Shown here one piece after another: positions 2,145 to 7,172 of a stretch of 10,000 nt of DNA (positions within the stretch are counted from its first letter, which is position 1; every line of letters starts with the position of its first letter). The DNA is from Thiobacillus sp. (GTDB lineage: Bacteria > Pseudomonadota > Gammaproteobacteria > Burkholderiales > Thiobacillaceae). Location: NCBI GenBank assembly GCA_020217265.1, contig JAIWOS010000080.1:1-10000 (forward strand). The letters run 5' to 3'. The notes below the pieces were generated by a model. The model saw only the letters and a list, made by a program, of their open reading frames with translations. It ran no database searches and was not told the origin of the DNA. The translations under genes were made by a program, and so were the position numbers.

Positions 2145-2177
2145 CAAAACGGGGACGGCCAAGCCGTCCCCGTTTTG
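2145..2177. terminator. Bidirectional intrinsic terminator
   Basis: The left arm 2145-2159 (CAAAACGGGGACGGC) and right arm 2163-2177 (GCCGTCCCCGTTTTG) are perfectly complementary over 15 bp, with a 3-nt loop. The stem has a GC-rich core and each strand ends in a TTTTG run, so it can stop transcription in both directions. It lies 15 bp after the cysS stop and 16 bp beyond the stop of the converging Met-rich gene, which is where a shared terminator belongs. Confidence 0.9.
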
Positions 2178-2193: not shown

Positions 2194-3066
2194 TTACTTC
2201 GCGGCGGGCGCGGCAGCCGGCGCGGGCTGCGCGTAGTTGGCCGGATTCCACATGTTCATCCAGGCGTTCGGGTCGAAGAAGTTGAACGTGCCAGCGGTGG
2301 CGGGTGCGTTGGCCGGTGCCGCGGTCGTGCCGGCAGCGGCGGGCTGGGCGGCGCCCTGGGTCGCCATGCCCATCCAGGCGTTCGGGTCGAAGAAGTTGAA
2401 GGTCGCGGGCGCAGCGGCGCCAGCAGCGGTGTAGCTGGCCGGGTTCATCCAGGTGCCCCAGCTGCCGTAGGTGGCGGGGTTCATCGAGGCGTTCATCCAG
2501 CCGGTGTAGGTGGCCGGGTTCATCGGCGCCATGGCGAGCTGCCACAGACGCGGGTCCATCGGGGCCATCATCCACTTCATGTACATGCCGGGGTTCATGG
2601 ACTGCATCATCATGTTCCACATGTTGGGGTCCATCGGCATCATCATCCAGCGCATCATCTTGCCGGGGTCGGCGAACTGGGTCATCAGCGCGGTGTAGAA
2701 GTTGGGGTCCATCGAGGCCGCCATCCACTTCATGTACATGTTGGGGTCGGCGAACTGCATGTAGTTGTTGAGCGAACGGGGGTCCATCATCGAACCCATC
2801 ATGCGGTACCAGTTGCCCGGTTCCATCATGTTCACGCCCATCTGGGTGTAGAAGCCGGGTTCGGTCACGGCGTTGGCCCAGGGCACGAACACCTTGGGAT
2901 CACGGTAGGCCGACGCGTTGCGGGTGAAATCGGTCATGCGCTCGAGCCACTGGGCGCTGGTTTGCGGCGTGGTGGGCTGGGCGGCGGGAGCGGGAGCGGT
3001 GCCGTTGGCGTAGGCTGCGGCGCTGCCCAGAAGACCGAGGGCGAGGACGATCGATTTCACTTTCAT
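2194..3066 (-). CDS. Exported Met-rich tandem-repeat protein, unknown function
   Basis: The product has 290 residues. Residues 1-20 are a Sec signal peptide (MKVKS, hydrophobic core, AYA then Asn21), so the mature protein is periplasmic or outside the cell. Residues 21-37 are an Ala/Pro/Thr spacer, and 38-55 (AQWLERMTDFTRNASAYR) look helical. From 57 to about 212 the chain is roughly twelve copies of a 12-13-residue unit, approximately P-x-x-[YWF]-x-x-x-M-x-x-x-M-[DN]. About 34 of 140 residues are Met, with many Trp and Tyr and almost no Cys or His. The C-terminus has two copies of TFNFFDPNAWM (222-232 and 260-270) separated by Ala/Pro linker. Start ATG 3066 has an AAGGAG at 3073-3078 and a good sigma-70-type promoter. 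It is monocistronic. I do not recognise a family. A thioether metal-binding, membrane-surface or structural coat role is speculation. Confidence 0.88.
   Translation of the reverse strand: MKVKSIVLALGLLGSAAAYANGTAPAPAAQPTTPQTSAQWLERMTDFTRNASAYRDPKVFVPWANAVTEPGFYTQMGVNMMEPGNWYRMMGSMMDPRSLNNYMQFADPNMYMKWMAASMDPNFYTALMTQFADPGKMMRWMMMPMDPNMWNMMMQSMNPGMYMKWMMAPMDPRLWQLAMAPMNPATYTGWMNASMNPATYGSWGTWMNPASYTAAGAAAPATFNFFDPNAWMGMATQGAAQPAAAGTTAAPANAPATAGTFNFFDPNAWMNMWNPANYAQPAPAAAPAAK
2257..2400 (-). repeat. Exact 30-bp direct repeat inside the Met-rich gene
   Basis: Positions 2257-2286 and 2371-2400 are identical over 30 bp, offset by 114 bp (38 codons, in frame). They encode the two copies of FNFFDPNAWM near the C-terminus. 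Exact identity at the DNA level suggests recent duplication, gene conversion or strong constraint. The spacer between them encodes Ala/Pro/Thr-rich linker. Confidence 0.9.
2431..2898 (-). repeat. Coding tandem repeats of 12-13 residues
   Basis: This stretch encodes residues 57-212 of the Met-rich protein. Reading from each Pro, successive units include PGFYTQMGVNMME, PGNWYRMMGSMMD, PNMYMKWMAASMD, PNFYTALMTQFAD, PGKMMRWMMMPMD, PGMYMKWMMAPMD, PRLWQLAMAPMN and PATYTGWMNASMN. Spacing is 12 or 13 residues throughout, with Pro at the start, an aromatic residue near position 4 and Asp or Asn at the end. Some DNA is also nearly repeated: a 19-bp segment recurs exactly at 2569-2587 and 2722-2740. Most units have diverged, so the array is not freshly amplified. 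Confidence 0.85.
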
Positions 3067-3072
3067 GGGTTT

Positions 3073-3078
3073 CTCCTT
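3073..3078 (-). promoter_or_regulatory. Strong Shine-Dalgarno of the Met-rich gene
   Basis: The minus strand reads AAGGAG here, six bases upstream of the ATG at 3066. It fixes the start and suggests efficient translation; several neighbouring genes lack such a site. Confidence 0.85.
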
Positions 3079-3145: not shown

Positions 3146-3175
3146 ATTATTTTGCTTATATCAGTATATTGTCAA
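3146..3175 (-). promoter_or_regulatory. Sigma-70-type promoter of the Met-rich gene
   Basis: On the minus strand, a perfect -35 TTGACA (plus 3170-3175) is followed after 18 bp by AATAAT (plus 3146-3151), a five-of-six match to the -10 consensus. The segment is markedly AT-rich compared with its surroundings. Transcription would begin near 3139, giving a 5' leader of about 70 nt before the ATG at 3066. This is the clearest promoter in the window. Confidence 0.7.
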
Positions 3176-3219: not shown

Positions 3220-3672
3220 ATGAAACCGAATCATTTCCTTTATCTCGGCGCCGAGAACTGGGTGCATCCCGCATGGCTGCGAGATTTCTATCCCGAGGGG
3301 CTCCCCGAAGACTGGCTGTTGTCGTATTACAACACTCAATTCCAGACGGTTTATCTGCCTGCCGCCGTCTGGCGACAGGCACGTCCGGAAACCTGGACGC
3401 AGTGGTTGTACGACACCCAGGAAGGCTTTGTCTTCATTGTGGAAGCGAGTCCGGATTCGGCTTTGCCGGCTTCGGAGCGCGTGCGTGTGGCGACGGCCGC
3501 GTGGCAGACGGCGCACGTGTGGTGGCTCGACGAATCTGCCGACCTGCGGGCCTTGTCGCGGCGCATCCGGGAGCACGCGGCGACGGGTGAAGAACTGTTC
3601 ATCCTCAGCCGCGTGGGCGATCTCGCCCTGCTACAGCAGGTCAAGGCGCTGCGCGAGGTGCTGGGTTACTGA
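3220..3672 (+). CDS. Small DUF72-like protein (N-terminal part only)
   Basis: The product has 150 residues with no signal peptide or membrane segment, so it is probably cytoplasmic. The first 75 residues resemble the start of DUF72 (YecE-like) TIM-barrel proteins: LYLGAENWVHPAWLRDFYPE (7-26) recalls their opening G-T-S-G-W-x-Y-x-x-W...FYP pattern, followed by a tyrosine pair and TVYLPAAVW, then a WxxW-like segment and FVFIVEAS, like their F-x-F-x-x-K stretch. DUF72 proteins are usually 240-300 residues, so at least half the barrel is missing, yet the reading frame is clean and ends normally. The canonical GTSGW is altered to GAENW. The last 60 residues are Ala/Leu/Arg-rich and probably helical. 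There is no clear Shine-Dalgarno; a GATAAT at 3208-3213 lies just upstream. It ends 50 bp before mlaF with no terminator between. The DUF72 relation is from memory of the family pattern and needs a profile search. Confidence 0.7.
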   Translation: MKPNHFLYLGAENWVHPAWLRDFYPEGLPEDWLLSYYNTQFQTVYLPAAVWRQARPETWTQWLYDTQEGFVFIVEASPDSALPASERVRVATAAWQTAHVWWLDESADLRALSRRIREHAATGEELFILSRVGDLALLQQVKALREVLGY

Positions 3673-5349: not shown

Positions 5350-5817
5350 ATGAACAAGACCGTGCTCGATCTCTGGGTCGGGATATTCGTCGTCGCGGGT
5401 ATCGCCGCGTTGCTGTTTCTGGCGCTCAAGGTGGGCAGCATGAATACCGTAAACACGTCCGACAGCTACACGGTACTGGCGCGTTTCGAGAACATCGGCG
5501 GGCTCAAGGTGCGGGCGCCGGTGAAGAGCGCCGGCGTGGTCGTCGGCCGGGTGTCGGATATCCGTTTCGACAATGAACGCTATGAGGCCGCCGTGACGCT
5601 TCGGCTGGATAAGCGCTATGCTTTCCCCAAGGATTCCTCGGCTGCAATCCTGACGTCGGGCCTGCTGGGCGAGCAGTATGTCGGCCTCAGCGCGGGCGGG
5701 GACAGCGTTAAATTGAAGCAAGGTGACCGTATCCTGATCACCCAGGATGCGGTGGTACTGGAAAACCTGATCGGACAGTTTCTCTACGGCAAGGCTCAAG
5801 AAGGAGCGCCCCAATGA
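5350..5817 (+). CDS. mlaD: Mla transporter MCE-domain subunit MlaD
   Basis: MlaD is anchored in the inner membrane by one N-terminal helix (about residues 7-27). It forms a periplasmic hexameric ring whose central pore passes phospholipids between MlaE and MlaC. The product has 155 residues. The MCE domain spans about 39-117, with YTVLARFENIGGLKVRAPVK (40-59), GVVVGRVSDI and GLLGEQYVGLSAGG (104-117). LENLIGQFLYG near the end matches the C-terminal helix that lines the ring. E. coli MlaD is longer (about 183 residues), mainly through a low-complexity tail absent here, so the short length is not a sign of damage. The stop TGA overlaps the ATG of the TolC-like gene by 4 bp. Confidence 0.95.
   Translation: MNKTVLDLWVGIFVVAGIAALLFLALKVGSMNTVNTSDSYTVLARFENIGGLKVRAPVKSAGVVVGRVSDIRFDNERYEAAVTLRLDKRYAFPKDSSAAILTSGLLGEQYVGLSAGGDSVKLKQGDRILITQDAVVLENLIGQFLYGKAQEGAPQ
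5801..5806 (+). promoter_or_regulatory. Shine-Dalgarno of the TolC-like gene inside mlaD
   Basis: AAGGAG lies seven bases before ATG 5814 and within the last codons of mlaD. It is one of the strongest ribosome sites in the operon, so the TolC-like protein should be made efficiently along with MlaD. Confidence 0.8.
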
Positions 5818-7172
5818 ACATGAACGTGCTTACACATACTTTACTGGCCGTGGGCCTGATCGCCGCGCTGCCGGCGCAGGCGGACACCGTGACGCTGCAG
5901 CAGGCGGTGGAAATGAGCCTCGCGGCCGATCCGCGCATCAAGGAACGCGAGCAGGTCATTGAAGCCGCGCGTGCGATGGTGCGCGAAGTGAAAGGCAACG
6001 CCGGCTGGCGTGTCAGCGCCAATGCCTTCATCGGGCTTGCACCTGAGGTGGATGGCGGGTTCTACCAGGGCGGCGCGTTTTCCGGCACGACCCCGCGTAC
6101 TGACGGCGACAAGATCCACGGCATTTCAGACTGGACGCACCTGGATTTCGCACTGATCAAGCCGCTGTACACCTTCGGCAAGGTCGAGCGCTACGGCGAC
6201 GCAGCGCAGGGCAACGTCGATCTCAAGCAGGGCGAACTCAAGCAGACGCGCGCCGACATCGCCTACGACACCAAGCGCGCCTATTTCGGCTATCTGGCGG
6301 CACGCGACGCACGCGGATTCCTGGAAGACATGCAGCAGCGTGTCAACCAGGCGATCGCCACGGTCGAGCGCAACCTCAAGGAAGAAAATGGCGAGGCGCG
6401 TCAGTCCGATTTGTTCGCCCTGCAGACCGCCAAGGGCCTGCTGGCCAAATACGTGCACCAGGCGCGCGCAATCGAGAAAATCAGCCTTGACGGCCTCAAG
6501 GTGCTGACGGGCGCGGGACTGAAATCCGATTTGCAGGTGGCGGATAGCCGCATCGAGCCGGTTGCCTTTCCGCAGGTCGACCTCGCCGAATTCCAGGCGC
6601 GCGCGCTGCAGGACCGGCCGGAGATGCAGCAGCTCGAAGCCGGTCTGCGCGCTCGCCGCGCGCTGGTCGCGGCGAAGAAGGCCGATCGCATGCCGGATGT
6701 GTATGCCGGCGTGATCGGCCAGTTCAATTACGCCTCGCAGCGCGAGCGTCTGGACAACCCCTACCTCTACGACCCCTTCAATGGTGGCGGGCTCACGCCG
6801 GTGGTCGGCGTGAAATGGGATACGGTGTTCGGCGTGTCCACCGCGCGCGTCGACCAGGCGCAGGCCGAGCTGGAGGCGCTCAATCACAAGAAGGCGTTTG
6901 CCGTCGCGGGCATTCCCTATGAAGTGGGCGAGGCGTACGCCAACGCCCAGGCCAATTTCGACGCGCAGCGCGATCTGGCCGAAGGCGCGGCCGCGGCACG
7001 CCGCTGGATGGTCGCCTCGCTGGCGGACTTTTCCGCCGGCATCGAGACCGCCGACAAGGTGGCCGACGCGATCAAGAACTACGCGCTGATGCAGACCGAA
7101 TACCTGCGCACGGTGAACGACTACAACATGAACGTGGCGCAACTCGCCCGCCTGACCGGTGAACTCAAGTAA
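5814..7172 (+). CDS. TolC-family outer-membrane protein in the mla operon
   Basis: The product has 452 residues. Residues 1-23 are a signal peptide (AQA then Asp24). The mature protein has the two-fold repeat of outer-membrane efflux proteins: VTLQQAVEMSLAADPRIKER (26-45) opens the first half, and LAEFQARALQDRPEMQQLEA (257-276) opens the second, each followed by long Ala/Gln/Glu/Arg-rich helices. The strand-forming segments HLDFALIKPLYTFGK (109-123) and TPVVGVKWDTVF (328-339) fit a trimeric barrel with a periplasmic tunnel. The end (NDYNMNVAQLARLTGEL) is typical of the family. No lipobox is present. Such proteins normally serve as exit ducts for type I secretion or efflux pumps, but no membrane-fusion protein is encoded nearby. 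It lies between mlaD and mlaC, where related bacteria commonly carry mlaA. A role as outer-membrane partner of this Mla system is inference; export for the downstream ABC-2 pair is an alternative. Confidence 0.9.
   Translation: MNMNVLTHTLLAVGLIAALPAQADTVTLQQAVEMSLAADPRIKEREQVIEAARAMVREVKGNAGWRVSANAFIGLAPEVDGGFYQGGAFSGTTPRTDGDKIHGISDWTHLDFALIKPLYTFGKVERYGDAAQGNVDLKQGELKQTRADIAYDTKRAYFGYLAARDARGFLEDMQQRVNQAIATVERNLKEENGEARQSDLFALQTAKGLLAKYVHQARAIEKISLDGLKVLTGAGLKSDLQVADSRIEPVAFPQVDLAEFQARALQDRPEMQQLEAGLRARRALVAAKKADRMPDVYAGVIGQFNYASQRERLDNPYLYDPFNGGGLTPVVGVKWDTVFGVSTARVDQAQAELEALNHKKAFAVAGIPYEVGEAYANAQANFDAQRDLAEGAAAARRWMVASLADFSAGIETADKVADAIKNYALMQTEYLRTVNDYNMNVAQLARLTGELK

Follow-up and report, generated by a model that had tools for sequence, protein, structure and literature searches.

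What is the function of the methionine-rich repeat protein encoded at positions 2194 to 3066, on the minus strand, of the window (the whole 10,000-nucleotide stretch of DNA analyzed here), and with which cellular process is it connected? The gene, which we term MRR (Met-rich repeat), starts with ATG and encodes 290 residues. To our knowledge, little is understood of how sulfur-oxidizing bacteria hold elemental sulfur and hand it over between the periplasmic Sox and flavocytochrome enzymes and the cytoplasmic rDsr route, and the in-depth studies of globule proteins known to us concern Allochromatium vinosum. Our analyses place MRR in an undescribed family of exported proteins with predicted helical repeats, and they link that family to sulfur oxidation.

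MRR is built from proline-led units

The N terminus of MRR carries a putative Sec-type signal peptide (residues 1 to 20; 3007..3066, minus strand), read as MKVKSIVLALGLLGSAAAYA|NG with probable cleavage after AYA, and Ala20 is at least 90% conserved among 66 sequences, in agreement with the export signal proposed in an earlier note on this DNA. The repeat core (residues 56 to 208; 2443..2901, minus strand) consists of [D/E/N]-P-led units that alternate between 13 and 12 residues in two flavors, giving a two-helix repeat of ~25 residues. The units follow the pattern [D/N]-P-x-x-[Y/W]-x-x-[W/M]-[M/L]..., and unit position 7 is usually Trp in one flavor and mostly Met or another residue in the other. 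In a distant relative (G222, L103:2195-3526), the ~25-residue pair is almost perfectly repeated. The longest chain of prolines at 12- to 13-residue spacing in mature MRR has 13 members, compared with at most 8 in 5,000 composition-preserving shuffles; the repeat is far beyond chance. Met accounts for 23.4% of residues 71 to 215 and 14.4% of the mature protein, neither Cys nor His occurs after residue 20, and the core has a mean Kyte-Doolittle hydropathy of -0.37 with 17 charged residues out of 157. Within the Ala/Pro-rich tail lie two copies of FNFFDPNAWM, at residues 223 to 232 (2371..2400, minus strand) and 261 to 270 (2257..2286, minus strand), which are identical at the DNA level too (30/30 bases); no 10-mer duplicate arose in 5,000 shuffles of the protein. 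The proline-led repeat, the one-quarter Met content over about 140 residues, the near-absence of Cys and His and the two exact tail copies had all been noticed previously, and each is borne out by these counts.

In the one AlphaFold model obtained, MRR is predicted to form short helices, with block-mean pLDDT values of 88 to 95 over residues 31 to 200 and 80 over residues 201 to 210 (pTM 0.57). Pfam and NCBIfam profile searches with the protein returned nothing significant, the OmpA domain PF00691 included, a PDB sequence search gave no match, and Foldseek searches of nonviral structure libraries found no related solved fold. Titles and abstract openings in the literature, with subscription papers outside the scope, contained no description of the family. 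By these searches, the confidently predicted helical array would represent a new repeat module, which upholds the earlier view of a protein of no recognizable family and is consistent with its proposal of a new repeat fold.

The gene also bears signs, though not proof, of high expression. A sigma-70-like promoter, TTGACA-N18-AATAAT (3146..3175, minus strand), scores 11/12, with one such site found against 0.4 expected in the region, and a putative Shine-Dalgarno sequence, AAGGAG (3073..3078, minus strand), stands 6 bases before the ATG. C-ending codons for Phe, Tyr, Asn and Asp make up 55 of 58 in the MRR gene, compared with fractions of 0.54 to 0.85 in nine neighboring genes, making it the most biased of the ten measured. 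Hexamers of the TTGACA/AATAAT type with a spacer of 17 or 18 occur upstream of 12 of the 107 family genes checked. These 12 genes represent 8 distinct genomes and every one lies at the mla locus described below, so a promoter common to all MRR paralogues was rejected. The suggestion that the gene looks well expressed is thus in accord with the promoter, its conservation and the codon bias. That it has expression signals entirely of its own holds for the promoter and AAGGAG, but the terminator-like hairpin that separates MRR from the converging cysS gene (2145..2177; 15-bp stem) scored on the plus strand only, that is, for the cysS side.

Distribution of the MRR family

Our protein search identified 229 MRR relatives among 8,000 candidates scored. 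Among the 120 relatives listed, an OmpA domain (PF00691) is present in 66, a BON domain in 4 and neither in 50, while 74 contain a [FVIYL]N.[FLYM][DN]P motif after the core. The window's own genome has five MRR places, one of which (on C175) is cut by a contig end. Within the same taxonomic family, 52 of 117 genomes, representing 9 of 12 genera, encode MRR, with 2 to 10 matches each. All 23 genomes of one genus (g27) are carriers. The window's genus has MRR in 9 of its 56 genomes and no match in the other 47, and thus provides a natural comparison. Beyond the taxonomic family MRR is scarce: it is present in 7 of 399 genomes of an order sample, 6 of them (the window's own genome included) from the same taxonomic family, and in 9 of 369 genomes of a class sample, a count that includes the window's genome and one marginal case (G846). 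MRR loci, 80 of 122 of which were kept as named loci, are labeled Thiobacillus, Hydrogenophilales, Parasulfuritortus cantonensis and some Gallionellaceae bins; the contigs are fragments, and a number of the bins are probably mislabeled. Parasulfuritortus cantonensis LSR1, a cultured carrier, encodes at locus L067 a member whose tail is OmpA-like by motif. One such record, a metagenome bin labeled Bordetella parapertussis (L098), has a Thiobacillaceae-type mla/MRR locus and is probably mislabeled.

Two further features of the family were apparent. Met-poor paralogues (L002:2069-2707(+) and L004:1468-2016(-)), with ~4 to 10% Met, keep the proline/aromatic frame; the first of these, which has numerous close relatives, forms a tandem pair with a Met-rich copy, and a search with the Met-poor paralogues returned similar labels (Thiobacillaceae, Hydrogenophilales and others), plus one Kiritimatiellia bin. 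In addition, members outside Thiobacillaceae (L135, L136, L137 and L141) retain two Cys residues in a YYxxC ... KCSxEP arrangement, which are absent from the window copy and from the other aligned Thiobacillaceae members.

MRR relatives are found in sulfur-oxidation loci

Two members of the window's genus, G031 and G481, have a cytochrome c-like gene, fccB, an MRR paralogue, soxY and soxZ on one strand, with gaps of about 17 to 80 bp, and the product of the MRR paralogue is ~51% identical to the window protein. A gene for a sigma-54 regulator, profile-tested in G031, is located upstream of these genes. The G031 FccB matches PF21706 and PF09242 over their cut-offs, with no NCBIfam equivalog above its cut-off, while SoxY and SoxZ both score over NCBIfam cut-offs; the proteins of the G481 locus are 90 to 94% identical to their G031 counterparts. 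The G481 genes are followed by genes for a CxxCH protein with no Pfam match, a rhodanese, a DUF302 protein, two Met-rich proteins with signal-like N termini (37% and 18% Met) and, at the end, what reads as a thioredoxin-like protein. The more Met-rich of the two proteins 3′ of the fcc-MRR-sox genes has 190 residues (L154:9543-10115(+)).

Sulfur genes also accompany MRR in other families. In G517, a cluster with genes on both strands comprises Sulf_transp, MRR, LTXXQ, two proteins with MNPA-x-Y repeats, a 27%-Met protein, DUF302, SoxZ and SoxY, with SoxY and SoxZ over cut-off. In G222, from a third family, Sulf_transp, MRR and DUF302 genes stand directly in a row. For the Sulf_transp proteins, matches to TsuA-type models stay below cut-off. 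In both G222 and G517, the sulfur-transporter cluster is preceded by a shared run of five genes, which read as putative tolB, pal, ybgF, queE and queC; of these, pal was profile-tested (PF00691). The two MNPA-x-Y proteins of G517 consist of 9-residue units and end in FNWFDP[NT]AW. They belong to a second exported repeat family, with 9-residue MNPA-x-Y-M units and a similar FN.FD..AW ending, which adjoins MRR genes in two gammaproteobacterial families (L142:8078-8749(-), L142:8809-9501(+), L143:1616-2221(+) and L144:807-1436(+)).

Among the loci examined, soxYZ lies beside MRR in those of three genomes only (L020, which is the same as L150; L142; and L154), and the sox and Sulf_transp loci were found by following hits rather than by a blind count, many loci having short flanks. 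The MRR loci of f95 and f160 show no recognizable sulfur gene, and in G713 (f138) an NrfD-type gene two genes from MRR says little, as its best NCBIfam models score far below cut-off.

Genome content points in the same direction at the level of the class. There, dsrA scores over cut-off in 7 of the 8 other MRR genomes, compared with 104 of 360 genomes without MRR (P = 0.0012, not tree-corrected), and in 6 of 7 when the marginal G846 is removed (P = 0.0036). Counted once per family, the values are 5 of 6 (P = 0.011) and, minus the marginal case, 4 of 5 (P = 0.031); the MRR genome with no dsrA match is G596. Inside the window's taxonomic family, dsrA does not separate genomes with MRR (42/52 over cut-off) from those without (52/65), and an association with either soxB or dsrA is uninformative there, with the two scoring over cut-off in 100 and 94 of 117 genomes, respectively. 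The window's genome itself has full dsrA and soxB, with soxYZ beside soxB (soxYZ by tblastn and soxB by model) and probably soxX and soxA in the same cluster. That sox cluster contains no MRR gene, and the genes linked to the window copy are mla and cysS rather than sox. The noncarriers of the window's genus are mostly sulfur oxidizers too. Because 47 of 56 genomes of that genus lack MRR and dsrA is equally common without it, MRR is not needed for sulfur oxidation itself.

Collectively, these data provide good support for a link between MRR and sulfur oxidation, and the sulfur reading is favored over one based on copper or oxidants because some relatives sit in sulfur-oxidation operons. That MRR proteins bind sulfur directly and act as a coat or store is our inference from this link, and the window copy would share such a role by extension from paralogues ~51 to 54% identical to it. 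We put at about even the chances that MRR proteins act in the periplasm by binding or coating zero-valent sulfur, in the manner of the sulfur globule proteins (Sgp), as part of the sulfur-oxidation apparatus. The periplasmic action of flavocytochrome c and Sox enzymes yields zero-valent sulfur. In the scheme that we envisage, the 12- to 13-residue units would form capped short helices that stack into an α-solenoid, whose Met, Trp and Tyr residues and few charges may create surfaces suited to zero-valent sulfur (S8 or polysulfane). MRR would bind, coat or hold the sulfur made by flavocytochrome c and Sox, which would then pass to the cytoplasmic rDsr route, with OmpA domains tying many relatives to peptidoglycan and a few relatives carrying BON instead. 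The multicopy family would, in this way, form part of the periplasmic sulfur apparatus of rDsr/Sox proteobacteria. A more specific version, in which MRR surfaces hold S8 or polysulfane loaded by flavocytochrome c and SoxYZ, are tethered through OmpA paralogues and take the place of Sgp proteins in Thiobacillaceae and a number of further gammaproteobacterial families, is put forward tentatively, as one that may well prove wrong. Of the three functions suggested in the earlier note, a coat or surface layer comes closest to this reading, although the connection to sulfur was absent from it. As a multicopy, probably abundant exported family with members in fcc-sox operons, MRR proteins are named candidates for sulfur handling.

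The mla neighborhood is probably inherited

The window copy has a different setting. In 39 of the 80 named loci, MRR occupies the same place, diverging from the mla genes and from a gene for a short DUF72 protein, and cysS lies within 6 kb in 33 of the 47 mla-type loci of the tree set, in which some genomes are counted twice. In the window, this divergent neighbor (3220-3672) encodes a short DUF72 protein of 150 residues that matches 54 of 217 profile positions. A TolC-type gene is located between mlaD and mlaC (5814-7172), and a similar gene clusters in only 12 of the 80 named loci, which are the ones closest to the window in the tree. In 27 of the 30 loci retrieved, out of 52 genomes with a match, cysS directly adjoins DUF72, with MRR absent. 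In a tree of MlaF plus DUF72, which has weak support at several forks, three changes are needed to account for MRR, and loss would be likelier than gain at exactly the same site, because carriers lie both outside and nested within noncarriers. A function for MRR read from the mla genes was therefore rejected: the position looks inherited, transcription is divergent and the same site occurs without MRR in those 27 loci.

These observations bear on the foremost alternative, that MRR binds no ligand and serves, in large amounts, as a periplasmic spacer or a surface protein of the layer formed by outer membrane and peptidoglycan, a role that the OmpA and BON relatives reveal. Such a scaffold would fit the 66 OmpA and 4 BON fusions among the 120 relatives listed, the mla lipid-transport operon adjoining MRR in 39 of 80 named loci, the interchangeability of Met with Leu, Ile and Val (see next section) and the abundance suggested by the codon bias and promoter. 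However, it leaves the clustering with fcc-sox, Sulf_transp and DUF302 genes unexplained, and the mla neighborhood looks inherited rather than operonic, since MRR is transcribed divergently. We therefore judge the scaffold unlikely, though it deserves to be kept in view.

Methionine is exchangeable, with no copper gene seen next to the window copy

Over 43 mla-locus copies, two of which are tandem paralogues, the number of Met residues in the core ranges from 14 to 39 and is inversely related to that of Ile+Leu+Val (r = -0.84), with the sum constant at 42.8 ± 4.1, while Phe+Trp+Tyr is steady at 16 to 24. Met content of MlaF plus DUF72 from the same loci does not track that of the core (Spearman -0.17, P = 0.27). 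Residues invariant across 66 relatives include several unit prolines, Phe60, Trp114, Tyr124, Tyr187, Met138 and Met142, among others, and Trp140 and Trp165 are conserved at 98%. M138 is lost in the Met-poor paralogues but kept in the further paralogues aligned, and M142 is lost in both. A conserved Met ligand set of the CopA/CopB type was not found in these alignments. Because Met trades with Leu, Ile and Val at a constant sum, it is mainly a structural core hydrophobe that is enriched in some lineages; this exchange argues against a metal-ligand array, and by itself it identifies no ligand.

The possibility that MRR is a soft-metal buffer, its thioethers holding periplasmic Cu(I) or Ag(I) in place of CopA/CopB, draws on a Met-rich composition without Cys or His and on a pronounced genomic pattern. 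Across the 117 genomes of the taxonomic family, MRR and the copAB copper operon hardly ever occur together: CopA (TIGR01480) scores over cut-off in 0 of 52 MRR genomes compared with 25 of 65 without MRR, and for CopB the counts are 1 of 52, the match being weak and partial, compared with 25 of 65. Within genera, CopA and MRR were seen together 0 times against 4.4 expected (P = 0.002, not tree-corrected). The LTXXQ gene of the G517 cluster, which we take to be of the Spy/CpxP type, adds a sub-cut-off Metal_resist match. The same exclusion, however, extends to g27, in which all 23 genomes are carriers, and the family includes Met-poorer members; the exclusion therefore need not go with Met richness, and it could stem from habitat. 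Moreover, sub-cut-off CopA matches, which represent other multicopper oxidases, occur in genomes irrespective of MRR, Met is not conserved as a ligand set and we saw no copper gene next to the window copy. The earlier proposal of metal binding is thus weakened by the exchangeable Met and the lack of an adjacent copper gene, retaining some support from the copAB exclusion, and we regard a soft-metal buffer as improbable. More improbable still is an oxidant sink of the MrpX type, in which Met oxidized by hypochlorite or peroxide is repaired by MsrPQ: it would suit an exported protein high in Met, Trp and Tyr and has a precedent in MrpX with YedY1 (PMC5748585, in the text available), but MsrP (NF003767) scores over cut-off in only 20 of 52 MRR genomes, leaving 32 with no such match, compared with 47 of 65 without MRR, co-occurrence inside genera is as expected by chance (20 seen, 19.4 expected), we saw no msr gene in the window and the promoter resembles a housekeeping one. 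The suggested sink repaired by MsrP is accordingly not upheld.

Comparison with known systems

The reading that we prefer, in which MRR proteins bind or coat zero-valent sulfur, invites comparison with the Sgp proteins. In the portions of the published account available to us, these have their own promoter, a signal peptide and a separate transcription unit, with a repetitive sequence containing spaced prolines; SgpA to SgpC are described as extremely hydrophobic, and SgpD, said to occur almost exclusively in Chromatiaceae, has P-x2-P patterns and a helix of 46 residues (PMC10386293). On that account, SgpA to SgpD of A. vinosum and MRR are alike in their Sec signals, spaced prolines, occurrence as several copies per genome, separate transcription units with their own promoters and rDsr sulfur oxidizers as hosts. 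MRR shares the spaced prolines (13 at 12- to 13-residue spacing) and, judged from its sequence, probable Sec export, but its core (-0.37) does not share the extreme hydrophobicity. SgpD, compared here by its description, also differs from MRR, in which units of 12 to 13 residues are predicted to form an array of short helices, Met is plentiful and some members are fused to OmpA or BON domains. As the pattern given for SgpD in the text consulted is a different one, we propose an analogy and claim no kinship.

Other known proteins resemble MRR in more limited respects. MrpX, in the available part of its report, is a Met-rich periplasmic peptide of the hypochlorite response that is co-regulated with YedY1 by SigF/NrsF (PMC5748585). 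MRR is likewise Met-rich and probably periplasmic, but it has no MsrP link and is a 290-residue repeat protein rather than a peptide. DUF302 genes are reported in sox clusters of other sulfur oxidizers, according to the accessible sections of two papers (PMC5037610, PMC5248467), and DUF302 genes share a cluster with MRR in G517, G481 and G222, in the last of which DUF302 comes immediately after it; DUF302 proteins form a separate family and are not relatives of MRR. Finally, short α-solenoids (TPR, ARM and the leucine-rich variant) are composed of tandem short helices, as MRR is predicted to be.
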